Shown here piece by piece: positions 1,154 through 15,636 of a DNA stretch of 15,875 nucleotides. Source of the DNA: Sulfuricella sp. (GTDB taxonomy: Bacteria; Pseudomonadota; Gammaproteobacteria; Burkholderiales; Sulfuricellaceae). Position 1 is the first letter of the stretch. Each line of letters opens with the position of its first letter. Both the position numbers and the translations under genes were made by a program. The notes below the pieces were generated by a model that was not told the origin of the DNA, ran no database searches, and worked only from the letters and a program-made list of their open reading frames with translations. The DNA is taken from contig JAIOJM010000050.1 in assembly GCA_019911785.1 (NCBI GenBank), positions 1 to 15,875 of the forward strand, given 5' to 3'.

Positions 1154-3955
1154 ATGATAAAGTCGTCGCGCAGAGAATTTCTCAAAGCCGCCGGTGCCGC
1201 CTCGTTGAGCGTCATGCTGGGCGGTTCATATGCCTTGCGGGCCTTGGCCCAATCTCAGGACGCCATGACCCAGCACGAATACACCGGCTGGGAGAATTTC
1301 CACCGCAATCAGTGGAGCTGGGACAGGAAAACGCGTGGGGCACACCTCATCAACTGTACCGGCGCCTGTCCGCATTTCGTCTATACCAAGGACGGCGTGG
1401 TGATGCGGGAGGAGCAGTCGAAGGACATCGTGCCGATGCCCGGCATCCCCGAATACAATCCGCGGGGCTGCAACAAAGGTGAGTGCGCCGTCGATTACCA
1501 GTACGGGCCGCATCGCATCAAATATCCGTTGATTCGCGTCGGCGCGCGCGGCGAAGGCAAATGGCGGCGTGCGAGCTGGGACGAAGCGCTGGGAATGATC
1601 GCCGACAAGATCGTCGACACCATCAAGAACGAGGCGCCAGACTGCATCAGTGTGTTCTCTCCAGTGCCGGCGGTGGCGCCGGTGTCGTACAGCGCCGGCC
1701 ATCGCTTTGCGCACCTGATCGGTGCCCACACCCATACTTTCTTCGACTGGTATGGCGACCATCCCACCGGCCAGACTCAGACCTGCGGTGTGCAGGGCGA
1801 CACCTGCGAGACCGCCGACTGGTTCAACTCCAAGTTCATCGTATTGTGGGGCGCCAACCCGTCGGTCACCCGTATTCCCGACGCACACTATCTGTCGGAA
1901 GCTGCCCTCAATGGCACCAAAATCGTCAGCATTACGCCGGACTACAATGCTTCGACGATCAAGGCAGATCAGTGGATACACCCCAAGCCCGGCACCGACG
2001 GTGCGCTCGGCATGGCGATGGCTCATGTCATGATCAAGGAAAAACTGTTCGATGTGCACAGCGTGAAGGAGCAGACCGACCTGCCCTACCTGGTGCGCAA
2101 GGACAACAAGCGCTTCCTGCGCGAGGCCGATGTCGTCAAGGGTGGTTCGCCCAACAAGTTCTACGCCTGGGACGCGAAGACTGGCAAGGCGGTAATTATG
2201 AAGGGCTGCTGGGGCGAAGAGCCGGAGCAGAAGCCGGCGGTCAGCCCGGCCTTTCTGGGCCGCAACACGCTGACCTTCCCGAAAGGCCATATCGATCTGG
2301 GTGAACTCGATCCGGCGCTGGAAGGAAGCTACAAGGTGCAACTCGCCGACGGCAAGATGGTCGATGTGCAGCCAGTCTTCGATATCCTCAAGGCCCGCAT
2401 TATGAACGAATACTCGCCGGAAAAGGCCGGGAGCATAACCGGGGTTTCGGCCAAGGTGATTACCCAGTTGGCCCGCGAATTCGCGGCCGCCAAACCGGCG
2501 ATGATCATCTGCGGTGGCGGCACCAACCACTGGTACTACAGCGACGTGCTGCTGCGGGCCTTCCATCTGCTGACCGCGCTTACGGGAAGCGAGGGAAAAA
2601 ATGGCGGCGGCGTCAATCATTACATCGGCCAGTGGAAGCCAGTCTTCTTACCCGGCATCGTCGCCTTGGCCTTTCCGCAGGGTGCTGCCAAGCAGCGCTT
2701 CTGCCAGACCACCATCTGGACTTACATCCATGCCGAGGTCAACGACGAGATGGAGAAAGTGGGGATCGATACCAACAAATATCTTCGTGAAAGCATCGCC
2801 ACGCGCCAAATGCCGAACCTGCCGCGTGACGGCCGAGATCCCAAGGTGTTCATCGTCTATCGCGGCAATTATCTGAACCAAGCCAAGGGACAGAAGTACG
2901 TGTTGCAGAACCTGTGGCCGAAGCTCGATCTGATTGTCGATATCAACATCCGCATGGATTCGACGGCGCTGTATTCGGACATCGTGCTGCCGTCTGCCCA
3001 CTGGTACGAAAAGCTCGACCTGAATGCGACTGAAGAACACACCATGATCAACATGACCGAGCCGGCCATCAAGCCGATGTGGGAGTCGAAGACCGACTGG
3101 CAGATATTCCTCGATCTGTCGAAACAGGTCGAGGCAGCGGCGGCGAAGAAGAACTTCACCAAGTTCAACGACGAGCAATTCAAGTGGGTGCGGGATCTGT
3201 CGAGCCTATGGAACCAGATGACCGACAACGGCAAGCTGGCCAGCGACGAAGCCGCCGCCCAGTTCATTCTCGACAGCGCACCGCAATCGAAGGGCATCAC
3301 GCTGCAAATGCTGCGGGAGAAAGGGCCGCAACGCTTCAAGAGCAACTGGACGTCGCCGATGAAGGAGGGGATTCCCTACACACCGTTCCAGAACTACGTG
3401 GTCGACAAAAAACCTTGGCCGACGCTTACCGGTCGCCAGCAGTTTTATCTCGACCACGACACATTCTTCGCCATGGGGCTCGAATTGCCGACCTACAAGG
3501 CACCGATCGAGGCGGACAAGTTTCCGCTGCGCTTCAACACCCCGCACAGCCGCTACGGCATCCATTCGACCTTTAAGGACAACGTGCTGATGCTGCGGCT
3601 GCAGCGCGGCGGACCGTCGGTCGAGATGGCGCCTGCCGATGCCAATGCGCGCGGCATCAAGGACAACGACTGGGTCGAGGTGTGGAACAACCACGGTCGC
3701 GTCATCTGCCGCGTCAAGATTCGCAAGGGCGAGCAGGCTGGCCGCGTGTCCATGTGGCACACCCCCGAACTCTACATGGACCTTATCGAAGGCAGCACGC
3801 AGAGCGTCCTGCCGATTCGCATCAATCCCACCAGCCTGGTCGGCAATTACGGCCACCTGGTGTTCCGGCCCAATTACTACGGGCCGGGCGGCGTCCAGCG
3901 CGATTCGCGGGTGGAGGTCAAACGCCACCTTGGCACCACGCCGATGAGCCTGTGA
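1154..3955 (+). CDS. pcrA: Perchlorate reductase catalytic molybdenum subunit PcrA
   Basis: This 933-residue type II DMSO-reductase-family protein would reduce perchlorate to chlorate and chlorate to chlorite in the periplasm. TAAGGAG at 1139-1145 sets the start. A twin-arginine signal (SRREFLK, residues 5-11) ends near A32. The FS0 iron-sulfur site is H64-x3-C68-x3-C72 and C106 (RGCNKGEC). Asp202 in WYGDHPTG is the expected molybdenum ligand, since it matches D170 of the mature Azospira enzyme as I recall the numbering. The dinucleotide-binding stretches characteristic of the family run through residue 920. The gene leads pcrBCD and cld, the order that identifies perchlorate rather than chlorate or nitrate reductase. 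Residues 196-197 are Phe-Phe where I recall Phe-Tyr gate residues in A. suillum PcrA; a tryptophan near the third gate position is present (W494). Selenate or nitrate reductase subunits are the nearest alternatives, but context excludes them. Confidence 0.95.
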   Translation: MIKSSRREFLKAAGAASLSVMLGGSYALRALAQSQDAMTQHEYTGWENFHRNQWSWDRKTRGAHLINCTGACPHFVYTKDGVVMREEQSKDIVPMPGIPEYNPRGCNKGECAVDYQYGPHRIKYPLIRVGARGEGKWRRASWDEALGMIADKIVDTIKNEAPDCISVFSPVPAVAPVSYSAGHRFAHLIGAHTHTFFDWYGDHPTGQTQTCGVQGDTCETADWFNSKFIVLWGANPSVTRIPDAHYLSEAALNGTKIVSITPDYNASTIKADQWIHPKPGTDGALGMAMAHVMIKEKLFDVHSVKEQTDLPYLVRKDNKRFLREADVVKGGSPNKFYAWDAKTGKAVIMKGCWGEEPEQKPAVSPAFLGRNTLTFPKGHIDLGELDPALEGSYKVQLADGKMVDVQPVFDILKARIMNEYSPEKAGSITGVSAKVITQLAREFAAAKPAMIICGGGTNHWYYSDVLLRAFHLLTALTGSEGKNGGGVNHYIGQWKPVFLPGIVALAFPQGAAKQRFCQTTIWTYIHAEVNDEMEKVGIDTNKYLRESIATRQMPNLPRDGRDPKVFIVYRGNYLNQAKGQKYVLQNLWPKLDLIVDINIRMDSTALYSDIVLPSAHWYEKLDLNATEEHTMINMTEPAIKPMWESKTDWQIFLDLSKQVEAAAAKKNFTKFNDEQFKWVRDLSSLWNQMTDNGKLASDEAAAQFILDSAPQSKGITLQMLREKGPQRFKSNWTSPMKEGIPYTPFQNYVVDKKPWPTLTGRQQFYLDHDTFFAMGLELPTYKAPIEADKFPLRFNTPHSRYGIHSTFKDNVLMLRLQRGGPSVEMAPADANARGIKDNDWVEVWNNHGRVICRVKIRKGEQAGRVSMWHTPELYMDLIEGSTQSVLPIRINPTSLVGNYGHLVFRPNYYGPGGVQRDSRVEVKRHLGTTPMSL

Positions 3956-3991
3956 GCAGCACAACCGAACGATCTTGGAAGGGAATGAATC

Positions 3992-4993
3992 ATGGCTAAA
4001 GTTATGAAAGCATCAAAGCGGCAGTTGGCATTCGTCGTGGATCTCAACAAATGCATCGGTTGTCAGACTTGCACGGTTGCCTGCAAGAAGTTGTGGACCA
4101 GCGGTCCCGGTCAGGATTTCATGTACTGGCGCAACGTCACGACCGCTCCGGGCATGGGTTACCCCAGGAACTGGGAGACCATGGGAGGCGGTTACAAGGG
4201 TGGCGAGTTGCAAAAGGGTAAGAAGCCGATGCCGGTTGATTATGGCGTACCCTTTGAGTTCGACTACTCGGGGCGGCTTTTCGAGGGCAAACCGGGCCGT
4301 GTGCGGCCCAGCCCAACGCCGCGCTCGGCACCTAACTGGGACGAGGATCAAGGTGCCGGCGACTATCCGAACAACCATTACTTCTACCTGCCGCGGCACT
4401 GCAACCACTGCACCAAGCCCGCCTGCCTGGAGGCTTGCCCGAACGACGCCATCTACAAACGCGAGCAGGACGGGGTCGTGCTGATCCATCTCGACAAGTG
4501 CAAGGGGGCGCAGAGCTGCGTCGAATCCTGCCCATACAAGGTGCCGTACTATAACCTGGTGACCAACAAGTCCAACAAGTGCATTGGTTGCTTCCCGCGT
4601 ATCGAGAAAGGGGTCGCCACTGCCTGTGTAGCCCAGTGCGTAGGCCGCGCCATGCACGTCGGTTTCCTCGATGATCCGGCGAGTTCGGTGAACAAGCTGG
4701 TGCTTCAGTGGAAAGTGGCGCTGCCGCTGCATCCCGAATTTGGCACCGGGCCCAACATCTACTATGTGCCACCGGTTCTCGGGCCGGGCATGGAAGATGG
4801 TGCCGGCAACATGTCCGACCAGCCGAAGATTCCTCTGGCGCAGTTGCAGGGGCTGTTCGGTGCGGGCGTTCAGGACGTGCTGAAGTTGCTCAAGTCGGAG
4901 CGTGAAAAGAAGATGAAAGGCCAGGCGTCGGATTTGATGGATACGCTCATCGGTCGGCGCAGCGCAGACATGATGCTTTCTCCGCTTACTTGA
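3992..4993 (+). CDS. pcrB: Perchlorate reductase iron-sulfur subunit PcrB
   Basis: A 333-residue NarH/DmsB-type ferredoxin subunit that passes electrons from cytochromes to PcrA. Four cluster motifs are visible: I, C21/C24/C27/C31; II, C137/C140/C145/C149; III, C170/A173/C176/C180; IV, C197/C200/C212/C216. In motif III alanine 173 replaces the second cysteine, the change that yields a [3Fe-4S] cluster in this family (NarH has Trp at this place). There is no signal peptide, so the protein would be exported folded with Tat-directed PcrA. GGAAGGGA lies upstream of the ATG, and the gap after pcrA is only 36 bp. Length and order agree with known PcrB. Confidence 0.95.
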   Translation: MAKVMKASKRQLAFVVDLNKCIGCQTCTVACKKLWTSGPGQDFMYWRNVTTAPGMGYPRNWETMGGGYKGGELQKGKKPMPVDYGVPFEFDYSGRLFEGKPGRVRPSPTPRSAPNWDEDQGAGDYPNNHYFYLPRHCNHCTKPACLEACPNDAIYKREQDGVVLIHLDKCKGAQSCVESCPYKVPYYNLVTNKSNKCIGCFPRIEKGVATACVAQCVGRAMHVGFLDDPASSVNKLVLQWKVALPLHPEFGTGPNIYYVPPVLGPGMEDGAGNMSDQPKIPLAQLQGLFGAGVQDVLKLLKSEREKKMKGQASDLMDTLIGRRSADMMLSPLT

Positions 4994-5006
4994 GGCCGGC
5001 CGGAAT

Positions 5007-5044
5007 AGCGGTGCGGAGAGACTTCGCACCGCTGCCATCCTTTT
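5007..5044 (+). terminator. Intra-operon hairpin between pcrB and pcrC
   Basis: AGCGGTGCG (5007-5015) pairs perfectly with CGCACCGCT (5025-5033) around a 9-nt loop. Seven bases later comes TTTT (5041-5044). It resembles a leaky terminator or an RNA-processing barrier, and would lower pcrC, pcrD and cld relative to pcrAB, or stabilise the pcrAB message. Confidence 0.5.
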
Positions 5045-5061
5045 AAAAATTGGAGAACAAA

Positions 5062-5772
5062 ATGATGAAAGTGTTCCAGCTGGCAGCGATTCTGCTGCTT
5101 ACGGCGGGATGGACTAATGCCGCTGATGAACCGGGCTATGAGGGCTTCCGCAACTGCTTAAAATGCCACGACGGTGAGGGTGACTCATGGCGCAAGACAC
5201 CCCATGCCAAGGCATTCGAGTCGCTGAAACCAAACAATAAGGTGGAAGCCAAGATGAAGGCCAAGCTTGATCCGGCCAAAGACTATACGCGGGATTCGGA
5301 TTGTGTCGGCTGCCACGTAACCGGTTTCGGCGAAAAGGGGGGGTATCACGTCAACATCGGGCCGGATGAGGCGAAGTGGCTCAGCGGCGTGTCCTGTGAG
5401 TCCTGTCATGGGGCGGGTAGCGATTTTCGGCGGAAGCACGGCGAGGCTGAAGATAGACTGAAAAAAACCGGTGAGCCGACCGACCGTCAAATGCTAATCG
5501 GGGCGAAGCAGAATTTCGATTACGAAAGGGCCTGCGCTCGCTGCCACCTAAATTACCAGGGGTCGAAATGGGCCGAGGCAAAACCGCCCTTCACGCCTTT
5601 CACGCCGGCAATCGACGCCAAGTATCAGTTCGATTTCAATAAGGCGGTGCGCACGCTAGGCAACGGTAATCCGGTCCATACCCATTACAAGTTGCGGGGG
5701 GTATTCACGGGCGGGCCTGTCCCGGCGATCCGGGCCGAACTCCAGAATACGGCGCAAGAACCAGAGGATTGA
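5062..5772 (+). CDS. pcrC: Periplasmic tetraheme cytochrome c of perchlorate reductase, PcrC
   Basis: The likely start is ATG 5062 (236 aa), because GGAG at 5052-5055 is correctly spaced for it; a TTG at 5050 in the same frame would overlap that site. A short Sec signal ends near WTNA (residue 20). Four CxxCH sites at C32, C81, C112 and C158 and the spacing of extra histidines place it in the cytochrome c554-like multiheme group. As third gene of the operon it is the presumed electron donor to PcrAB, replacing the heme-b gamma subunit of related type II enzymes. Its role is inferred from family and position; other cytochromes encoded here may share the work. Confidence 0.92.
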
Positions 5773-5855
5773 TGCCGGGCCATCAGTCTGGGCACTTCCG
5801 ATGGAGCGCTAAAGCGACACGATAGCAACACGATAATTAGGACGGGATACGCATT

Positions 5856-6566
5856 ATGAATGATATGAACGCAGCAATGAGCATCAACCAGATCGAGAAG
5901 GCGGTAGCGCGCAGCCGCATTTATGCGCTGCTCGCCATGGGGTTCCGTTATCCGGAAGAAGGCGCCTTCTCGCAGTTCGCGGATGGCACCTACGCGGACA
6001 TGATTGCCGGCGCCGTTGGCGTGTGTGCAGCGGGTTTGCTCGGCAACTTCGAGGAAAATTTGGCACCCCGCTTGTTGGTCGCTGCCTCCTGCCAAGAACT
6101 TGAGTCGGACTACCTCAGCGCTTTCGAAACCAACCGGCCGAAGCCCAGTGTTTCCCTTTATGAGGGCAGTTACCACCATAAGGGCGGCAAACCGGCGCTG
6201 CTGCTAGAACTGAAGGGCTTTTACCGCAATTTTGGCTTGGTGATTGCGGAGGCGGAAAACGATCTCGAAGACGCGCTTACCGCTGAGCTTGAATTCATGC
6301 AATTTCTAACCGCCAAGCAGGCGCAGGCGGAGGAGGGTCTATTGGACAAGGCACCTTATCTGCGGGCACAACGGGATTTCCTCGAACGGCATTTGGCAAT
6401 GTGGTTGCCGGCGCTGCGGACGGCGGTGGATGCCAAGCTGGAACAACACTTCTATAGGGCGCTCACCGATTTTGGCGAGCAGCTTCGTCGCTCACGATAT
6501 CGAGGAAGTGCGGCGCGATATTATCCTTCTTGGCTAATGCTCCAAATGCTTCGCTGTAGCTTTTAA
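5856..6566 (+). CDS. pcrD: TorD-family assembly chaperone PcrD
   Basis: A 236-residue, all-helical cytoplasmic protein without signal or heme motifs. It shows TorD/DmsD-family features: ELESDYLSAF (81-90), the conserved loop SVSLYEG (98-104), FYRNFGL (122-128) and an acidic helix with ELEFM after it. Such chaperones bind the twin-arginine leader of their partner and hold it for molybdenum cofactor insertion before export, so the client is PcrA. GGGA at 5844-5847 supports ATG 5856. It follows pcrC by 83 bp and precedes cld by 21 bp, and matches the fourth gene of known pcrABCD operons. Confidence 0.92.
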   Translation: MNDMNAAMSINQIEKAVARSRIYALLAMGFRYPEEGAFSQFADGTYADMIAGAVGVCAAGLLGNFEENLAPRLLVAASCQELESDYLSAFETNRPKPSVSLYEGSYHHKGGKPALLLELKGFYRNFGLVIAEAENDLEDALTAELEFMQFLTAKQAQAEEGLLDKAPYLRAQRDFLERHLAMWLPALRTAVDAKLEQHFYRALTDFGEQLRRSRYRGSAARYYPSWLMLQMLRCSF

Positions 6567-7436
<870 letters not shown>

Positions 7437-8632: not shown

Positions 8633-8764
8633 ATGTTGTGTTTGTTGATCCGCCCAGATACAGACCATCCCAGCATTTCTCGTTGAAGATGTAACCTTTT
8701 ACCGCTGCGTTCCGAATACTCAACAAAGAAGGAATGTGATCACTTTATAGCGAGGTTGATGATC

Positions 8765-8890
8765 ATGAAGAACGAGTTTTATCGCCTTGATTATGAGCGT
8801 TTCAGCACTGCACGGTGGGGGGGCAATCGTCAAATGTGGTTTGCAATAGTGATTTTTGGCGGGTTTTCTGCGCAGAAGATGATTTTCTGA
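8765..8890 (+). CDS. Possible 41-residue membrane peptide
   Basis: An ATG at 8765 with GAGG at 8752-8755 opens a 41-codon frame ending TGA at 8888-8890. The product starts MKNEFYRLDYERF, is charged in the first half and has one short hydrophobic stretch (WFAIVIFGGF). I recognise no family. It lies alone in the 305-bp gap between moaA and the diheme cytochrome, and a candidate sigma-54 promoter overlaps its 3' end. It could be a small membrane protein, a gene remnant or chance. The rest of the gap shows nothing else I can support. Confidence 0.3.
   Translation: MKNEFYRLDYERFSTARWGGNRQMWFAIVIFGGFSAQKMIF
8857..8872 (+). promoter_or_regulatory. Candidate sigma-54 (-24/-12) promoter
   Basis: TGGCGGGTTTTCTGCG keeps the invariant GG (8858-8859) and GC (8870-8871) with the required 10-bp spacing, and TGGC plus TGC agree with the consensus. 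Transcription would start about 55 bp before the diheme cytochrome gene. Perchlorate genes in Azospira suillum are, as I recall, controlled by a sigma-54-type response regulator (PcrR), so the class fits. One site in an AT-rich gap can still be chance. Confidence 0.4.
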
Positions 8891-8937: not shown

Positions 8938-9564
8938 ATGAAGCGAAAAAATGGGGGGTACGCACTGCTGGCGACTAGTGCTTTGCTTTGTTTGACTTTT
9001 CAATCCGGCGCACTGGCAGCCGATGCTGGAAAACTTGCCGAAAGCTGCGCGAGTTGCCACGGCAAGGACGGCGCCAGCACCGAGAGCGATGTGCCGAATA
9101 TTGGCGGTTATTCCGCCGAGTATTTCTCCGTCGCCCTGAAAGCCTACAAGAGCAAGGAACGTCCTTGCGTCGAGACCAAAGTGCGTTCCGGCGACAAGAA
9201 GGGGACCAAGACCGACATGTGTCAGCTGGTCAAGGACATGAGCGAAGCCGACGTCAAGGCGCTGGCTCAGCATTTTTCCGAGAAGAAGTTCGTGCGCACG
9301 GCGCAGAAATTTGATGCCGCCCTAGCCAAGAAAGGCAAGGACGTTCACGACAAGAATTGCGAAAAATGCCACTCTGAAGGGGCCAGCCTGGCAAGTGACG
9401 ATGCGGGTATCCTGGCAGGGCAGAAAATGGCTTACCTGAAGGAGCAGACCGAGTTTTTCCTGGGCGGCAAGCGTACCATGCCCAAGAAAATGAAACCCAA
9501 GCTGGAGGGGCTCGACAAATCCGAAGTTGAAGCTGTCCTCAATTACTACGCCAGTTTCAAGTAA
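8938..9564 (+). CDS. pcrO: Periplasmic diheme cytochrome c (c4-like), PcrO-type
   Basis: A 208-residue protein with a Sec signal (cleavage near GALAADA, residues 24-30) and two CxxCH sites, CASCH at 37-41 and CEKCH at 141-145, in two class I domains like cytochrome c4. MPKKM (181-185) offers an axial methionine for the second heme. C77 and C95 could form a disulfide in the first domain. AAGGA at 8922-8926 is a little far from the ATG. It precedes the NapC-type quinol dehydrogenase by 58 bp and probably shuttles electrons from it to PcrC/PcrB. The symbol rests on recalled descriptions of the Azospira island and is less certain than the family. Confidence 0.85.
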   Translation: MKRKNGGYALLATSALLCLTFQSGALAADAGKLAESCASCHGKDGASTESDVPNIGGYSAEYFSVALKAYKSKERPCVETKVRSGDKKGTKTDMCQLVKDMSEADVKALAQHFSEKKFVRTAQKFDAALAKKGKDVHDKNCEKCHSEGASLASDDAGILAGQKMAYLKEQTEFFLGGKRTMPKKMKPKLEGLDKSEVEAVLNYYASFK

Positions 9565-9622: not shown

Positions 9623-10225
9623 ATGTCGACCCCGACGGAAACTAAGAAACCTGGTAGATTTTGGCAGGCGTTGCGCAGTCCAAGTGCCAAATATTCATTA
9701 TTGACGCTGTTGGGTGGAGGGTTCGTTGCGGGCATCATTTTCTGGGGCGGTTTCAACACCGCCATGGAGGCGACCAACAAGATGGAGTTCTGTATTTCCT
9801 GCCACGAGATGAAGGACAATGTCTATCAGGAATACAAGAAGACTATCCATTACTCCAATCGTACTGGCGTGCGTGCCGTTTGTTCCGACTGTCACGTGCC
9901 GAAGGACTGGGTCCACAAGATACAGCGCAAGATCCAGGCGAGCGGGGAAGTGTGGGGCAAGCTGACTGGCACGATCGATACCCGGGAAAAATTCCAGGCC
10001 AAGCGGTTGGAGTTGGCGAAACACGAATGGGCGCGCATGAAGGGTTCGGATTCGCGCGAGTGCCGCAATTGCCATAGCTACGAAGGCATGGATCTGGAGA
10101 AACAGGACAAGAGCGCGCAGAAAAAGCACGTGCTGGCCGCAAAAGTGGATTCCGGCAAAACCTGTATCGATTGTCACAAGGGTATAGCTCACGAAATGCC
10201 CAAAGGTGACCACGACAATGAATAA
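9623..10225 (+). CDS. pcrQ: Membrane-anchored tetraheme quinol dehydrogenase, NapC/NirT family, PcrQ-type
   Basis: A 200-residue protein with one N-terminal transmembrane anchor (about residues 24-46, rich in Gly, Leu and Ile) and four CxxCH sites: C57, C87, C147 and C181. This is the NapC/NirT pattern of a quinol oxidase that hands electrons to periplasmic partners. Lengths and heme spacing agree with the family. AGAGGG lies upstream of ATG 9623. Together with the preceding diheme cytochrome it forms the quinone-to-periplasm branch for perchlorate reduction. Nitrate or nitrite respiration would be the alternative use, but neither reductase is nearby. Confidence 0.92.
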   Translation: MSTPTETKKPGRFWQALRSPSAKYSLLTLLGGGFVAGIIFWGGFNTAMEATNKMEFCISCHEMKDNVYQEYKKTIHYSNRTGVRAVCSDCHVPKDWVHKIQRKIQASGEVWGKLTGTIDTREKFQAKRLELAKHEWARMKGSDSRECRNCHSYEGMDLEKQDKSAQKKHVLAAKVDSGKTCIDCHKGIAHEMPKGDHDNE

Positions 10226-10366: not shown

Positions 10367-10864
10367 ATGATCATGGACAGACGGATGTTTATCAAACTGG
10401 CGACCGGCGGCGCTGGCCTTCTGGCCGTACCGCAGCTCTTCATGGCTCAGGCCATGGCGGCAGATCGCATAGCAAAAATCAGCAAGACCGATGCGGAATG
10501 GAAAAAACTGCTGACGCCGGCGCAGTACGACGTGCTGCGCCATGATGGCACCGAAGCGCCTTTCACCAGCCCGCTCAACAAGGAAAAGCGCAACGGCATG
10601 TATGCCTGCGTGGCCTGCAATCTGCCGCTCTTCCCTTCAAAATTCAAGTTCGACAGCGGTACCGGCTGGCCGAGCTTTTACGATGTGCTGCCCGGCCATG
10701 TCGAGACCACAACCGACTACAAGCTGGTGCTGCCGCGCACCGAATACCACTGCGCACGCTGCGGCGGCCATCACGGCCATGTGTTCAAGGACGGGCCGGC
10801 GCCCACCGGGCTGAGGTACTGCAATAACGGCGTGGCTTTGAAATTCATCGCGGACAGGGCTTAA
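10367..10864 (+). CDS. msrB: Tat-exported methionine-R-sulfoxide reductase MsrB
   Basis: This 165-residue enzyme reduces the R isomer of methionine sulfoxide. The N-terminus carries DRRMFIK and a hydrophobic run ending AMAA (residue 32), a twin-arginine signal, so the enzyme is periplasmic; most MsrB proteins are cytosolic. ATG 10373 is an equally possible start because neither has a strong ribosome site. Zinc ligands are C81/C84 and C129/C132, and the catalytic cysteine is C152 (RYCNN). No other cysteine is present, so it lacks a resolving cysteine and needs an outside thiol donor, plausibly the CcdA-thioredoxin fusion encoded 4 bp downstream. The context suggests repair of hypochlorite-oxidised periplasmic methionine. 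Confidence 0.93.
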   Translation: MIMDRRMFIKLATGGAGLLAVPQLFMAQAMAADRIAKISKTDAEWKKLLTPAQYDVLRHDGTEAPFTSPLNKEKRNGMYACVACNLPLFPSKFKFDSGTGWPSFYDVLPGHVETTTDYKLVLPRTEYHCARCGGHHGHVFKDGPAPTGLRYCNNGVALKFIADRA

Positions 10865-10868
10865 ATAC

Positions 10869-12515
10869 ATGATCATCGATATCGGATTGGCATTTCTCGA
10901 AGGTCTGGCGCTGATCGTCTCGCCCTGCATCCTGCCTGTTTTGCCGCTGGTGCTTGCGGCGTCGGTCGAGGGCGGTAGGCGCAGGCCTTACGGCATCATC
11001 ATCGGTTTCGTGCTGGCATTCAGCCTGTTTGCGCTGGTTTCGCGCCAGATCGTCATGGCGCTGGGCGTCGATCTCAATATCATCAAGAACGCTTCCCTGG
11101 TGCTGCTCGCCCTGTTCGGCCTGGTGCTGCTGTCATCGAAGCTGTCGGATAAATTCAGCGCGGCTACGCAAGGCGCGGCCAATTTCGGCAACCAGCTTGC
11201 CTCACGCGGCGGCGGGGGGTTGCTCAGCGGCGTGATGATCGGCTCGCTGATCGGCCTGGTGTGGACGCCCTGCGCGGGGCCGATCCTGGCCGCCGTGCTG
11301 GTGCAGGTGATCCGCCAGCAGACCGTACTCGCCGGCAACCTGATCATCGTGTCATTCGCTATCGGCGCCGGCGTGCCGATGCTCATCATTGCCCTGACCG
11401 GGAGAAAGGTCATGAAGAAACTGGGCTTCCTCTCCCGCCATGCAGAAGCGGTGCGCCGTGGGTTCGGCGTGCTGATCCTGCTGTCCGTCGCCTATATTGC
11501 CTCCGGCCTGGACGCGCAATCCCTGCTGACGATCCGCAGCACAAAAGCCCAACAGCCTGCCGGCGATCTGGTGCTGCGGGAAGGTCTGAGCACGCCTTAC
11601 GCCGCGCCGGAATTCGCCGGTATCGACGCCTGGCTGAACTCGAACCCGCTCACCATGCAGGGCCTGAAAGGCAAGGTCGTGCTGATCGATTTCTGGACCT
11701 ATTCCTGCATCAACTGCGTGCGCACGCTGCCCTACATCACCGACTGGGACCGGAAATATCGCGACCAGGGGGTGGTGATCGTCGGCGTGCATGCGCCGGA
11801 ATTCGAGTTCGAGAAGAAGCTCGACAACGTCAAGGCGGCGATTGCCCAGCACGGCATCCGCTACCCGGTGGCGCTGGACAACAACCTCTCCACCTGGGTG
11901 AACTTCAATAACCGCTACTGGCCTGCGCATTACCTCATCGACCGGGAGGGCAAGGTGGTCTACACGCATTTCGGCGAGGGTAAATACGAGGTCACGGAAA
12001 ACAACATCCGCTACCTGCTCGGGCTGAAAAAAGGCGGCGAACCCGTCGAGGCAGAGGCGCCCGCCGGCAACCCTGACCAGACGCCGGAAACCTATCTCGG
12101 CTATGCCAGGGCAGACAGCTTCGGGGGCGATGAGTCGGTGGCGCATAACGCGGAAAAGGCTTACCGCTTTCCGGATGAGCTTGCCGAAGACGAATGGGCG
12201 CTGAACGGCAAATGGAGAGTGGATTCGCAGAAGATCACTGCGGTCGGAAAGGGCGCGGCGCTACGCCTGGACTTCAATGCGCGCAAAGTGTTCCTGGTGC
12301 TGGGCACGTCCACCGGCAAGCCGATCCGCGTCTCTATCCGGCTGAATGGCGAGGCCGTCGGCCCCAATGCCGGCAAGGATGCCCCCGGCGGCGTGGTGAC
12401 CATCGAACGCAACACCCTCTACGAACTGGTCGACCAGAAAACACCGAAGAACGGCCTGCTGGAAATCCTGTCAGACTCTCCAGGGCTGGAGGCCTATGCC
12501 TTTACCTTCGGGTAA
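10869..12515 (+). CDS. CcdA-thioredoxin fusion membrane protein (DipZ family)
   Basis: A 548-residue protein in three parts. Residues 1-220 are a CcdA/DsbD-type membrane domain with six or so hydrophobic segments and the two redox cysteines in SPC20ILP and TPC135AGP. About 245-380 is a periplasmic TlpA-like thioredoxin domain with the active site C280-I-N-C283. About 390-548 is a beta-rich C-terminal domain usual in DipZ proteins. It carries reducing power from cytosolic thioredoxin to the periplasm. The start lies 4 bp after the msrB stop, so the two are translationally linked, and msrA follows. This makes it the likely electron source for both Msr enzymes, although cytochrome c maturation or disulfide isomerisation are known jobs of related proteins. 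Confidence 0.92.
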   Translation: MIIDIGLAFLEGLALIVSPCILPVLPLVLAASVEGGRRRPYGIIIGFVLAFSLFALVSRQIVMALGVDLNIIKNASLVLLALFGLVLLSSKLSDKFSAATQGAANFGNQLASRGGGGLLSGVMIGSLIGLVWTPCAGPILAAVLVQVIRQQTVLAGNLIIVSFAIGAGVPMLIIALTGRKVMKKLGFLSRHAEAVRRGFGVLILLSVAYIASGLDAQSLLTIRSTKAQQPAGDLVLREGLSTPYAAPEFAGIDAWLNSNPLTMQGLKGKVVLIDFWTYSCINCVRTLPYITDWDRKYRDQGVVIVGVHAPEFEFEKKLDNVKAAIAQHGIRYPVALDNNLSTWVNFNNRYWPAHYLIDREGKVVYTHFGEGKYEVTENNIRYLLGLKKGGEPVEAEAPAGNPDQTPETYLGYARADSFGGDESVAHNAEKAYRFPDELAEDEWALNGKWRVDSQKITAVGKGAALRLDFNARKVFLVLGTSTGKPIRVSIRLNGEAVGPNAGKDAPGGVVTIERNTLYELVDQKTPKNGLLEILSDSPGLEAYAFTFG

Positions 12516-12537
12516 CGGAATCGCCGAATAATTCACG

Positions 12538-12619
12538 CCGTTCGGGCTGAGCCTGTCGAAGCCCTATCCAACATATTGGATCAATATAGAGCGCCCTTCG
12601 ACAGGCTCAGGGCGAACGG
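12538..12619. repeat. Long inverted repeat with a nested hairpin
   Basis: Arms of about 26 bp (12538-12563 and 12594-12619) pair through a core of CTGAGCCTGTCGAAG and its complement, with two mismatched GG/CC positions. This core is familiar from intergenic repeats in many proteobacteria. Between the arms ATCCAA-CATA-TTGGAT forms a second 6-bp hairpin. The element fills the gap after the CcdA-thioredoxin gene and may end that transcript or separate msrA from it. Confidence 0.7.
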
Positions 12620-12657
12620 ATTTAATCAGCACTTCTCTAACCGTCAGGAGTGACATC

Positions 12658-13284
12658 ATGCCAACTATCCAGCGTTTCCACCGCTATTTATTCGGCAGCC
12701 TGTGTCTCATGCTCAGCCTGGCTGCGCCACCCAACGCCTCGGCCGCGCCCGCCGAACAAACGGCGGTATTTGCCGGCGGCTGTTTCTGGGGCGTGGATGC
12801 GGTGTTCAAGCACGTCAAGGGGGTGTCTGAAGTGGTGTCCGGCTATGCGGGCGGCAGCGCGGCCACGGCGCGTTACGAACAGGTCAGCAATGGAAATACC
12901 GGACATGCCGAAGCGGTACGCATCCAATTCAATCCGGAGCAGGTTTCCTATCAGCAGCTGCTGCAATTATTCTTCAGCGTGGCGCACGATCCCACCCAGC
13001 TCAACCGCCAGGGCCCGGATGTCGGCAGCCAATACCGCTCGGCAATTTTTTACACCAGCGCGGAGCAGCAGAAAATGGCGCAAAGCACTATCCAGCAACT
13101 CACCACCGCGCGCACTTTTTCCGCGCCCATCGTCACGCAAGTCGTGCCGCTGCAGCAGTTCTATCCCGCCGAGGAATACCACCAGAACTATCTGGCCTTG
13201 CATCCCAACCAGCCTTATATCGTCATCCATGACAAGCCGAAGCTGGAGCAATTGCGCAAGCGATTTCCGGCGTTGTATCAATAA
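12658..13284 (+). CDS. msrA: Sec-exported methionine-S-sulfoxide reductase MsrA
   Basis: A 208-residue enzyme that reduces the S isomer of methionine sulfoxide, complementing MsrB. AGGAG precedes ATG 12658. A Sec signal peptide ends near NASAA (residue 30), so the enzyme is periplasmic. The catalytic motif is GGC42FWG, and the GYAGG, NTGHAEAV and YHQNYL segments of the family follow. Apart from C16 in the signal there is no other cysteine, so it lacks the C-terminal resolving cysteines of the Escherichia coli enzyme and depends on an external reductant. The stop codon TAA at 13282-13284 is also the first three bases of an IS target duplication, so the gene survived the insertion intact. Confidence 0.95.
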   Translation: MPTIQRFHRYLFGSLCLMLSLAAPPNASAAPAEQTAVFAGGCFWGVDAVFKHVKGVSEVVSGYAGGSAATARYEQVSNGNTGHAEAVRIQFNPEQVSYQQLLQLFFSVAHDPTQLNRQGPDVGSQYRSAIFYTSAEQQKMAQSTIQQLTTARTFSAPIVTQVVPLQQFYPAEEYHQNYLALHPNQPYIVIHDKPKLEQLRKRFPALYQ

Positions 13285-13289
13285 ACCTA

Positions 13290-14258
13290 TATGCCTCTAA
13301 ACTATTTTCAGTTTGACCTGAGTATGCGTCAGGCAAGCGTTGAGCAGGCGTAATGGCAACTCGGCCTCCCACTCACGCCGGTTGAACCTATAGCAGAACT
13401 CATTGAGATACTCTTGCAGATACTTGGACGAAACGCCGTGATAGGTTCCCAGCAAAAACGCTTTGAGGTTGCCGATGGCAATGTGCACCCAGGGCAGCCA
13501 CTCGCCCGCCTTATCGGGCGGCGTCACCCGTGCCGCATGGTGCTGCGACTTGCCGATCTCCACCAAGGAGGCCAGCGCATCGCTGCGCACCAACTGACTG
13601 GGAGGGAGATGACGTTGAACAAACTGCGCCACCGTTTCACGGGTGACGGCAGAGACCTGCTGCATCGCGATAAATCCGGCACGCTTGTCCCGGTTCTCAA
13701 TCGCCACCAGCACTGGGGTTTTGCCTTCGGCACCGCGTCCACACTTTCCACTGCGTCGGCCACCCACCAGGGCATCGTCAATCTCGATCAGGTCATGCAA
13801 CCGGTAGACACTGTCCCGATGACCCATGGCAATGCGTATCTTGCGCAACATCCGGCTGGCGGTAATCCAGGACACGCCGATTTGTTTGGAAAGACGCACG
13901 GCAGATATCCCGCCCATGTCCGAGGCGGCCAGATAGATCGCCCAGAACCACTTGGTCAGTGGCAGGTTGGTGGAGTGAAACAGTGTCCCCGCAGTCAGCG
14001 AGGCCTGGTAATGGCACTTGGAGCATTCGTAGGAATGGCGCGTGGTGATGGCATATTCATGATCATGCCCGCAACGCGGGCAGCGGAACCCTTCCGGCCA
14101 GCGTTGCTGCGCCAGCGCCTGAATACAGGCTTCTTCCGTTCCATATCGCTTCTGCCAGTCCAGCAGGTTGGTTTCCGTCGCCTTCATGATTCAACTCCTT
14201 ATCTCGTTGATATCAATACGTTCGGCAGGAAAAAAACTGAAAATGGTTCAGAGGCATA
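13290..14258 (-). mobile_element. IS1595-family insertion sequence, complete, 969 bp
   Basis: Terminal inverted repeats of 25 bp (13290-13314 and 14234-14258, beginning TATGCCTCT, two mismatches) bound the element. A perfect 8-bp target duplication, TAAACCTA, flanks it at 13282-13289 and 14259-14266; eight bases is the usual size for this family. An undamaged transposase and an exact duplication indicate a recent insertion. Confidence 0.9.
13297..14187 (-). CDS. IS1595-family (ISXO2-like) transposase
   Basis: A 296-residue protein reading leftwards. It has an N-terminal zinc ribbon (C36/C39 and C55/C58), a helix-turn-helix-like segment (SKQIGVSWITASRML) and an ISXO2-type catalytic core with Asp in LIEIDDALVGG (137/138), D203 in VRSDAL and the family's YRFNRRE signature near residue 268. 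The stop codon lies inside the left terminal repeat. It moves the element by DNA cut-and-paste or copy and has no role in perchlorate metabolism. The frame is intact. Confidence 0.92.
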   Translation of the reverse strand: MKATETNLLDWQKRYGTEEACIQALAQQRWPEGFRCPRCGHDHEYAITTRHSYECSKCHYQASLTAGTLFHSTNLPLTKWFWAIYLAASDMGGISAVRLSKQIGVSWITASRMLRKIRIAMGHRDSVYRLHDLIEIDDALVGGRRSGKCGRGAEGKTPVLVAIENRDKRAGFIAMQQVSAVTRETVAQFVQRHLPPSQLVRSDALASLVEIGKSQHHAARVTPPDKAGEWLPWVHIAIGNLKAFLLGTYHGVSSKYLQEYLNEFCYRFNRREWEAELPLRLLNACLTHTQVKLKIV

Positions 14259-14462: not shown

Positions 14463-14469
14463 GTTGCGT

Positions 14470-15636
14470 ATGCACGCAGGGGAACTGGTGTTTGCTCAAT
14501 TGATGGGGTACCTGCCATTGCACACGTTCCGTCAGTGCGTAGCCAAATATCCAAGTCGATATCCCACTCTCAAGTTTTCGCATCTCGATCAGTTTCTCTG
14601 TCTAGCCTTTGCGCAATTGACTTACCGCGAAAGCCTGCGCGATATCGAAACCTGTCTGCGCGCTCACCAGGCGAAGCTCTATCATCTGGGCATTCGAGGC
14701 AACATCGCCAAGAGCACACTCGCAGACGCCAACGAATCTCGCGACTGGCGTATCTATCAGGATTTCGCGATGAGCTTGATCCAGACTGCCAGAAAGCTCT
14801 ACGCCAACGAGGGCTTTGCGGTGGAACTGGAACAGACGGTCTACGCACTCGATACCACAACTATCGACCTGTGCTTGAGCGTTTTTCCGTGGGCGCGCTT
14901 TCGCTTGGCGAAAGCCGCCGTCAAGATGCATACGCTGCTCTACCTGCGCGGCAACATTCCGTCCTTCATCCACATCAGCGATGGCAAGATGCACGAGGTC
15001 AACGTGCTCGATATCCTGGTACCCGAAGCTGGCAGCTTTTACATCATGGATCGGGGCTTCACCGATTTTGCTCGCTGGTTCGTCCTGCATCAAGCACAGG
15101 CGTTCTTTGTCATCCGTGGCAAATCCAATCTGTCATTTCGACGCAACTACTCTCGCGCCGTGGACACGTCCACGGGACTGCGCTGCGATCAGACCATTGC
15201 ATTAACCTCCGCCAAGGCCTGCAAGGATTACCCGCAGCACCTGCGACGCATCAAGTTCTACGATATCGAGCACGACAAACATCTTGTCTTCCTGACCAAC
15301 AACTTCGACTTGCCTGCGTTGACCATTGCTCAGCTTTATCGTTGCCGCTGGCAGGTCGAACTGTTTTTCAAATGGATCAAACAACATCTTCGTATCAAGC
15401 GGTTCTATGGCACCACCGAGAACGCAGTCAAGACTCAAATATGGATCGCCATCACCGTTTACGTCTTGGTCGCCATCGTGAAAAAGCGGCTCAACACCGA
15501 CGCTTCGCTCTACACAATTCTACAAATTCTGAGCCTGACTCTTTTCGAGAAAACACCACTCGATCAACTGCTTAAAAATACGGAGATACAAATGACTATG
15601 CCGAAAAATAATAACAAATTGAATTTATTCAACTAA
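14470..15636 (+). CDS. IS4-family transposase, DUF4372 N-terminus
   Basis: ATG 14470 (388 aa) is chosen over TTG 14464 because AGGAGG at 14458-14463 is correctly spaced for it. The N-terminal 75 residues resemble the DUF4372 domain found on a branch of IS4 transposases. Catalytic aspartates are D128 (YALDTTT) and D194 (YIMDRGF). The Y-(2)-R-(3)-E-(6)-K signature of the family is complete at Y290, R293, E297 and K304 within RCRWQVELFFKWIK. The protein appears full length and active. Confidence 0.92.
   Translation: MHAGELVFAQLMGYLPLHTFRQCVAKYPSRYPTLKFSHLDQFLCLAFAQLTYRESLRDIETCLRAHQAKLYHLGIRGNIAKSTLADANESRDWRIYQDFAMSLIQTARKLYANEGFAVELEQTVYALDTTTIDLCLSVFPWARFRLAKAAVKMHTLLYLRGNIPSFIHISDGKMHEVNVLDILVPEAGSFYIMDRGFTDFARWFVLHQAQAFFVIRGKSNLSFRRNYSRAVDTSTGLRCDQTIALTSAKACKDYPQHLRRIKFYDIEHDKHLVFLTNNFDLPALTIAQLYRCRWQVELFFKWIKQHLRIKRFYGTTENAVKTQIWIAITVYVLVAIVKKRLNTDASLYTILQILSLTLFEKTPLDQLLKNTEIQMTMPKNNNKLNLFN

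Follow-up and report, generated by a model that had tools for sequence, protein, structure and literature searches.

A thiol-type methionine sulfoxide repair triad at the end of a Sulfuricella perchlorate island is probably a hypochlorite-response operon

Introduction

In Azospira suillum, the SigF/NrsF–MrpX–YedYZ system (Melnyk 2015, via PMC4623255 and PMC5748585) joins a methionine-rich MXKDX peptide to a periplasmic reductase of methionine sulfoxide (MetO). The same combination is found in the BcrS/AbcS–BcrXQP system (PMC8315932), in which the Brucella peptide BcrX is classed with the MXKDX repeat proteins and described as homologous to that of Azospira. Both systems share a presumed hypochlorous acid (HOCl) trigger and the promoter GTAACC-N16-CGAA, which is the SigF/ECF16 (extracytoplasmic function, ECF) consensus of PMC3511200 and recurs in PMC8315932, and in both the electrons pass from quinol through YedZ/MsrQ to the molybdoenzyme YedY/MsrP. 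Here we analyse a stretch of 15,875 nucleotides from Sulfuricella sp. (GenBank assembly GCA_019911785.1, contig JAIOJM010000050.1), called the window, in which a perchlorate island ends in the tandem genes msrB, dipZ and msrA, where dipZ encodes a fusion of CcdA and thioredoxin and the other two encode methionine sulfoxide reductases (Msr). Like the systems above, the window combines an MXKDX peptide with periplasmic MetO reduction, a promoter of the same type and a presumed HOCl trigger. Instead of quinol, we propose that the cytosolic thiol pool feeds DipZ and then the stereospecific MsrA and MsrB, and the sigma and anti-sigma genes are absent from the window.

The proposed route resembles that of Streptococcus and Fusobacterium, in which a membrane CcdA feeds an extracytoplasmic thioredoxin, which in turn feeds Msr. 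In those bacteria the pathway is divided among a CcdA, a thioredoxin and a fused MsrAB, each a polypeptide of its own, whereas the window joins CcdA and thioredoxin in DipZ and encodes MsrA and MsrB separately. Such CcdA–extracellular thioredoxin–MsrAB pathways are described in PMC7034828, PMC9239216 and PMC3914529. The solved DipZ structures (PDB 2hyx, 5cyy) share with the window fusion a thioredoxin domain and a C-terminal domain, and their PDB listing states no link to Msr or to reactive chlorine species (RCS), no search there having been aimed at one. In Haemophilus influenzae, the ECF sigma factor RpoE2 drives a periplasmic MsrAB in the HOCl response (PMC7907618); its anti-sigma factor, a cytoplasmic protein of 67 residues, differs from NrsF, and the words methionine-rich, CcdA and NrsF are absent from the main text of that paper. 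Closest in setting are two pcr-cld islands, in Propionivibrio militaris MP and Dechlorobacter hydrogenophilus LT-1, for which Melnyk and Coates (2015, PMC4623255) report an MsrA and an MsrB predicted to be exported, as in the window; unlike the case of the window, no ccdA, thioredoxin, DipZ or DsbD is named in the main text, and neither island was found among the loci examined here. Among the proteins linked to chlorite dismutase (Cld), Barnum and Coates (2022, PMC9751292) include the two peptide-methionine sulfoxide reductases and an RCS-sensing sigma/anti-sigma pair, and the main text contains no mention of ccdA, thioredoxin, DipZ or DsbD.

Results and discussion

The triad lies on the forward strand, with msrB at 10367–10864 (PF01641, E 8.8e-46), dipZ at 10869–12515 after a gap of 4 bp (10865–10868), and msrA at 12658–13284 (PF01625, E 6.6e-63). 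The 548-residue fusion has the CcdA-type membrane domain (DsbD_TM, residues 5–209), the thioredoxin (Redoxin, 246–383) and the C-terminal domain (Thioredoxin_10, 405–548) that define DipZ (PF02683, PF08534, PF17991), and its residues 244–483 match the solved DipZ 5cyy/2hyx with an E value of 1.1e-66. Judged by eye, the N-terminus of MsrB (MIMDRRMFIKL...) is a leader of the twin-arginine (Tat) type and that of MsrA (...PPNASAAPAEQ...) is of the Sec type. The initial annotation, made from the sequence, had described this tandem arrangement with its leaders and its 4-bp gap as a complete thiol-type periplasmic MetO repair set, and domains and coordinates bear it out. Its claim of novelty has to be narrowed, given that exported MsrA and MsrB were already known in perchlorate islands (PMC4623255). 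Our results suggest that the triad is probably a hypochlorite-response operon of Sulfuricella-type bacteria that now stands at the end of a perchlorate island. It seems to be a pre-existing stress operon located there and not an innovation for perchlorate, and what is new is best read as a thiol-driven form of the known MXKDX/Msr bleach response under predicted SigF control.

Conservation of the triad was followed in 22 genomes of the family of Sulfuricella metagenome-assembled genome (MAG) G003, here called the Sulfuricella family. A full-length fusion, 77–89% identical, is present in 10 of the 22, and seven have the complete msrB-dipZ-msrA in the same order and on the same strand; of the others, G003 has no msrB at this place, G050 has no msrA and G036 is cut by a contig end. 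Altogether, 31 DipZ contexts from 28 genomes were compared, namely the 10 of the family, one from Nitrotoga and 20 places in 17 further genomes, these last coming from an order-wide search of 200 genomes (E <= 1e-60 in 21). Five contexts (L191–L195) that match mainly in the thioredoxin part or are frame-broken were retained in the denominator and, as the MsrA profile also caught MsrB, matches with shared coordinates were counted as MsrB. MsrA and/or MsrB accompany DipZ in 22 of the 31 loci (20 without the weak MsrB-like matches of L179 and L180), and both do so in 14. Moreover, sigF and nrsF occur together in nine loci, and MXKDX-type open reading frames (ORFs) in six, all within those nine; in G003, for instance, nrsF-sigF (NrsF confirmed by PF06532) is followed by a divergent MXKDX gene, dipZ and msrA. 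Twenty control stretches of 20 kb each, from seven of the same genomes, contain no sigF, nrsF, MXKDX-type gene or DipZ fusion, and give an MsrB match in two cases, one of them with a thioredoxin-only match as well. Within the family, NrsF exceeds its cut-off in 9 of 10 genomes with DipZ vs 2 of 12 without it (one-sided p 0.00095), a further match below the cut-off being found in G053, which has no DipZ. The initial annotation had envisaged a closed thiol cycle around the methionine-repeat peptide, and this part of it is supported, because in relatives the fusion often lies with Msr genes and, in some of them, also with sigF/nrsF and MXKDX peptides; it did not hold as a solution tied to pcr-cld, as shown below. 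In two of these clusters of sigF, MXKDX, Msr and DipZ genes there is also a protein of about 240 residues (L185, 8893–9621; L187, 2100–2816), which is FecR-like by a sub-cut-off match in one and has no Pfam match in the other.

The same distribution bears on whether the peptide takes part in the cycle. The triad could serve general envelope repair, mending oxidised periplasmic proteins (Pcr, cytochromes, Cld), with the MXKDX peptide as a bystander that is recycled poorly or not at all. The seven complete-triad family loci, which show no MXKDX-type ORF in the 10.7–18 kb examined, would fit this, as would the four of 10 DipZ-containing family genomes (G036, G037, G045, G050) in which TIGR02953 finds nothing at E 0.001, and the position of the mrp gene of the window, 9.5 kb away and outside the operon of the promoter. 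We consider this explanation unlikely, given that MXKDX matches (TIGR02953, E <= 1e-3, all below the family cut-off) occur in 6 of 10 family genomes with DipZ and in 0 of 12 without it, and that in six loci MXKDX-type ORFs stand with DipZ and sigF/nrsF.

Three features go beyond the initial annotation, namely a SigF-type promoter at 8691, a displaced msrB leader and the single-Cys character of both reductases. The promoter, GTAACC-N16-CGAAT of the ECF16 (SigF/NrsF) type at 8691–8717 on the forward strand, is an exact match and the only copy in the window, against an expectation of about 0.008 exact copies for even base composition. It lies between moaA and a cytochrome c gene, and msrB follows 1.65 kb downstream, beyond two cytochrome genes. 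An exact SigF promoter stands upstream of msrB in six of eight msrB-bearing family loci (L143–L148; not L149, L150), it is also present at several sigF/MXKDX loci and in 11 of the 32 MXKDX contexts considered below, and it is absent from 400 kb of control DNA. The pattern ending in CGAAT gave 30 exact matches in 12 family genomes vs four for the reversed control; the 30 fall at msrB in six cases and no more than 0.7 kb from an nrsF or MXKDX match in nine, and the 15 left unassigned may be chance. In G037 and G038, the promoter of the sigF/nrsF locus and that of msrB are 13 and 15 kb apart on one contig, and an MXKDX match at that sigF/nrsF locus is present in G038, none being detected in G037.

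The promoter lies within a segment, 8666–8767 on the forward strand, that is homologous to the msrB leader of Sulfuricella-type triads in relatives. Positions 8666–8748 match the msrB leader in 6 of the 14 loci compared (E 1.6e-15 to 0.005) and, in the 22 whole genomes, one place in each of six, always the msrB leader; the similarity reaching 8767 comes from one pairwise alignment, with G052. The leader alignment scores 75, a value that 500 shuffles (maximum 25) and 243 other places in the window (maximum 21) do not approach. In most relatives, DNA homology of the triad begins at the msrB start codon (10369), so the leader and msrB appear to have been split by a block of about 1.6 kb. This block holds a small ORF, a cytochrome c gene (8938–9564, forward strand; PF00034, PF13442; c4-like is a label only) and a gene for a NapC/NirT-type tetraheme quinol dehydrogenase, pcrQ-like (9623–10225, forward strand; PF03264, E 3.1e-77). 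The 9-mer ATGATCATG is found at both of its edges (8759–8767 and 10367–10375), GATCATG being the msrB start context in most relatives shown, and this repeat may mark an insertion at the msrB start codon; a search for relatives with the same block gave none. The small ORF (8765–8890, forward strand, 41 codons) is located by the leader alignment where msrB starts in relatives and is possibly a remnant; tblastn found no relative of it in the loci searched. We infer that the island kept the ECF16/SigF promoter and leader of its relatives and that the block was inserted ahead of msrB. With the promoter ahead of the block, a cytochrome c–pcrQ–msrB–dipZ–msrA transcript could be RCS-inducible.

The third feature concerns the cysteines. 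The fusion of the window has only four, Cys20 and Cys135 in the membrane part and Cys280 and Cys283 in the motif CINC, that is, one membrane pair and one CINC pair, as electron transfer from cytosol to periplasm requires. MsrA carries the catalytic motif GGCFWG (with the GCFW searched for), and the Cys in it is the sole one outside the leader. MsrB has four CxxC (zinc-type) Cys and the catalytic one (RYCNN); a resolving Cys was not found in it, and Thr stands in FDSGTGW, the FDSGxGW position being what we take to be the resolving-Cys site of MsrB. No Cys follows the catalytic one in the window MsrA or in 16 MsrAs of other DipZ loci, the MsrA of L181, which the catalytic motif did not catch, lying outside this comparison. 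The MsrBs of DipZ loci have Thr at the presumed resolving position wherever the motif was caught, and their Cys are otherwise zinc-type, with one or two more in the distant loci L154 and L185–L188. In the cld-linked MsrAs of Nitrotoga (L005, L021 and L052, three compared), additional Cys are present.

As the window MsrA has no recognisable resolving Cys, an intramolecular disulfide, the usual substrate of thioredoxin, seems unavailable, and DipZ would need to act on the sulfenic acid itself. Direct reduction of sulfenic acid on a 1-Cys Msr has precedents, and it is chemically plausible for DipZ to act in this way on 1-Cys MsrA and MsrB. Electrons would pass from cytosolic NADPH through thioredoxin reductase and thioredoxin to the Cys20/Cys135 pair of DipZ, from there to its periplasmic CINC site, and then directly, via a mixed disulfide, to the single catalytic Cys of MsrA or MsrB in its sulfenic acid form. 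MsrA would act on S-sulfoxides and MsrB on R-sulfoxides, and together they would restore the methionines that HOCl from Cld has oxidised in the MXKDX peptide and in other proteins of the envelope.

The quinol-driven route was sought alongside. No YedY or YedZ match is present in the window, which therefore lacks the YedYZ/MsrPQ reductase of the ECF16 MXKDX/Msr system. Neither YedY nor classical MsrP was found in eight of the 10 DipZ-containing family genomes, classical MsrP being present in G003 and G052; single absences are weak because, although G037 and G050 have nearly all of their DNA on one contig, other genomes are fragmented. An order-wide TIGR02953 search gave matches in 39 of 300 genomes, 23 of them over the cut-off. 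Seven were already among the DipZ contexts, and the remaining 32 contexts were examined, including six with none of the sought genes (L272, L275–L278, L281), which are probably false low-score matches and were retained in the denominator. Msr genes without YedYZ occur in three of the 32, and sigF with nrsF in 10, six of these with YedY/YedZ. In Dechloromonas hortensis (L152), msrA-mrp-yedY-yedZ stands beside sigF-nrsF on the pcr-cld contig, about 10 kb from pcrA, so both repair routes can coexist. One further MXKDX context (L269) has a partial DipZ-profile match.

Several observations weigh against reading the triad as a SigF-driven hypochlorite-response operon with a methionine peptide. The absence of sigF/nrsF from the window makes the regulator of the triad here a prediction, and the distant mrpX-like gene has no exact SigF promoter before it. 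When up to two mismatches are allowed, the window has 14 promoter matches vs a shuffle mean of 10.75, which is not above chance, so the case for the promoter is carried by the exact match together with the leader homology. The 141 bp ahead of msrB and a strong hairpin ahead of msrA could split the transcript. Among the relatives, an exact promoter at msrB is missing in G041 and G045, the latter also having the triad without NrsF. Of the 31 DipZ loci, 22 are missing sigF/nrsF and nine any Msr gene, while the sigma and anti-sigma proteins of L179 and L180 are distant (27–37% identity). MXKDX loci more often carry YedY and/or YedZ (19 of 32 contexts, six of them also with Msr genes). Furthermore, the p values treat the genomes as more independent than they are, given their relatedness.

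The initial annotation had tied the thiol solution to pcr-cld, and had named the usual occurrence of these genes without pcr/cld and the repeat gene as what would speak against it; this is in good part what was found. Seventy-eight Cld loci, from the best 80 of 201 confirmed stretches in genome_contigs, were examined over at most 10 kb on each side, many being cut short by contig ends. Within this DNA, the fusion is present in none of the 78, an MsrB match in 13 and a separate MsrA match in six; in two of the 13 (L001, L060), tblastn adds an MsrA match. When 39 genomes were searched for Cld, four matches were obtained, strong only in G003 and G036 and on contigs other than that of the fusion, and none in any of the seven family genomes with a complete triad. 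Complete triads in Cld-free genomes indicate that the triad is a lineage feature that occurs without perchlorate genes and, together with the absence of the fusion from the 78 loci, led us to reject a pcr-cld-specific module. No plasmid record covers 80% of the window, and the fusion matches there are at best 60–80% identical; in viral_contigs, 20 stretches matched a pattern and none encodes a Cld relative.

These data also bear on whether the co-location was selected. Perchlorate genes may have been inserted beside a sigF-regulated triad native to the host, which would then have no selected role in perchlorate respiration. The named close relatives of the fusion are mostly Sulfuricella (80–92% identical; the best match overall has 93%), two transposase genes follow msrA directly, and the fusion is missing from the DNA examined around the 78 cld loci, all of which would be expected in that case. 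In other lineages, however, Msr genes are again found in or near perchlorate and cld loci (PMC4623255, PMC9751292, L152, Nitrotoga L005 and others), so that co-location is probably useful, and we regard the native-host explanation as possible while leaning against it.

In its fullest form, the reading of the triad as a hypochlorite-response operon is put forward tentatively. Sulfuricella-type bacteria and some relatives may possess a second, thiol-driven ECF16 methionine-peptide bleach sink, which a perchlorate island has captured, placing a cytochrome c and a quinol dehydrogenase behind a bleach-sensing promoter. If this is true, NADPH–thioredoxin–DipZ–1-Cys MsrA/MsrB replaces quinol–YedZ–YedY in these bacteria, and hypochlorite leaking from Cld raises methionine repair and the supply of electrons to perchlorate reductase in step. 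In the parts of the literature compared here, MXKDX-linked methionine repair is quinol-driven (YedYZ/MsrPQ). A recurrent thiol counterpart with the same predicted regulator would imply a conserved core of regulator and sacrificial peptide, with an exchangeable electron source. It would also offer a concrete test, namely whether the electron-transport genes of the island came under reactive-chlorine control.

In a further explanation, DipZ serves mainly in the maturation of the island cytochromes c, with the Msr genes as passengers. Cytochrome c maturation draws electrons from DsbD/CcdA proteins, and four window proteins resemble c-type cytochromes: cyt1 (89–559), PcrC, the product of the 8938 gene and the NapC-like protein, the Pfam analysis covering the three other than PcrC. 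DipZ has MsrA/MsrB neighbours in most of its loci (22 of 31, two with weak MsrB-like matches) and sigF/nrsF in nine, which makes this explanation very improbable.

The remainder of the window is a perchlorate island with its core genes on the forward strand. The mrpX-like gene at 629–865 encodes an exported Met-rich MXKDX peptide, a proposed sacrificial HOCl scavenger, of 78 residues with 14 Met (TIGR02953, "pentapeptide MXKDX repeat protein", 72.7 vs a cut-off of 41 bits). Between it and the triad lie pcrABCD, for perchlorate reductase (1154–6566; TIGR03479 for PcrA and TIGR03478 for PcrB, both over the cut-off), cld, whose product is the presumed source of HOCl (6588–7436; PF06778, E 4.1e-30), and moaA. 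PcrA is 90% identical to that of a Sulfuricella MAG locus (L003).

The gap between dipZ and msrA (12516–12657, forward strand) is filled by a strong, near-perfect long inverted repeat (-53 kcal/mol, z -5.25, none of 200 shuffles equally stable), which could be a repetitive extragenic palindromic (REP)-like element, a terminator or a stabiliser that uncouples msrA. In scans, sigma-70 promoters and simple terminators were no more frequent than in shuffles. To the right, the island ends in a mobile-element region, with an IS1595-type transposase gene at 13297–14187 on the reverse strand, 12 bp past msrA, and a second DDE transposase gene (PF01609, DUF4372) at 14464–15636 on the forward strand.

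Some of the cld loci have arrangements of their own. In six (L005, L011, L012, L016, L021, L052; four from Candidatus Nitrotoga and two from other MAGs), msrB-msrA lies just upstream of cld, which is apparently an independent recruitment of Msr to cld; five of these MsrAs were compared (not that of L016) and have additional Cys. In six Nitrospira cld loci, "DipZ" profile matches proved on inspection to be short thioredoxins of the TlpA type that lack a membrane part, and were not counted; the six Nitrospira loci L063, L069, L072, L074, L077 and L078 encode, about 7 kb downstream of cld, a small TlpA-like thioredoxin that looks exported. In three other Candidatus Nitrotoga loci (L040, L041, L042), which have no perchlorate reductase match, cld stands beside sigF/nrsF with an MsrB match downstream, and chlorite dismutase looks as though it has been placed in the same predicted reactive-chlorine regulon.

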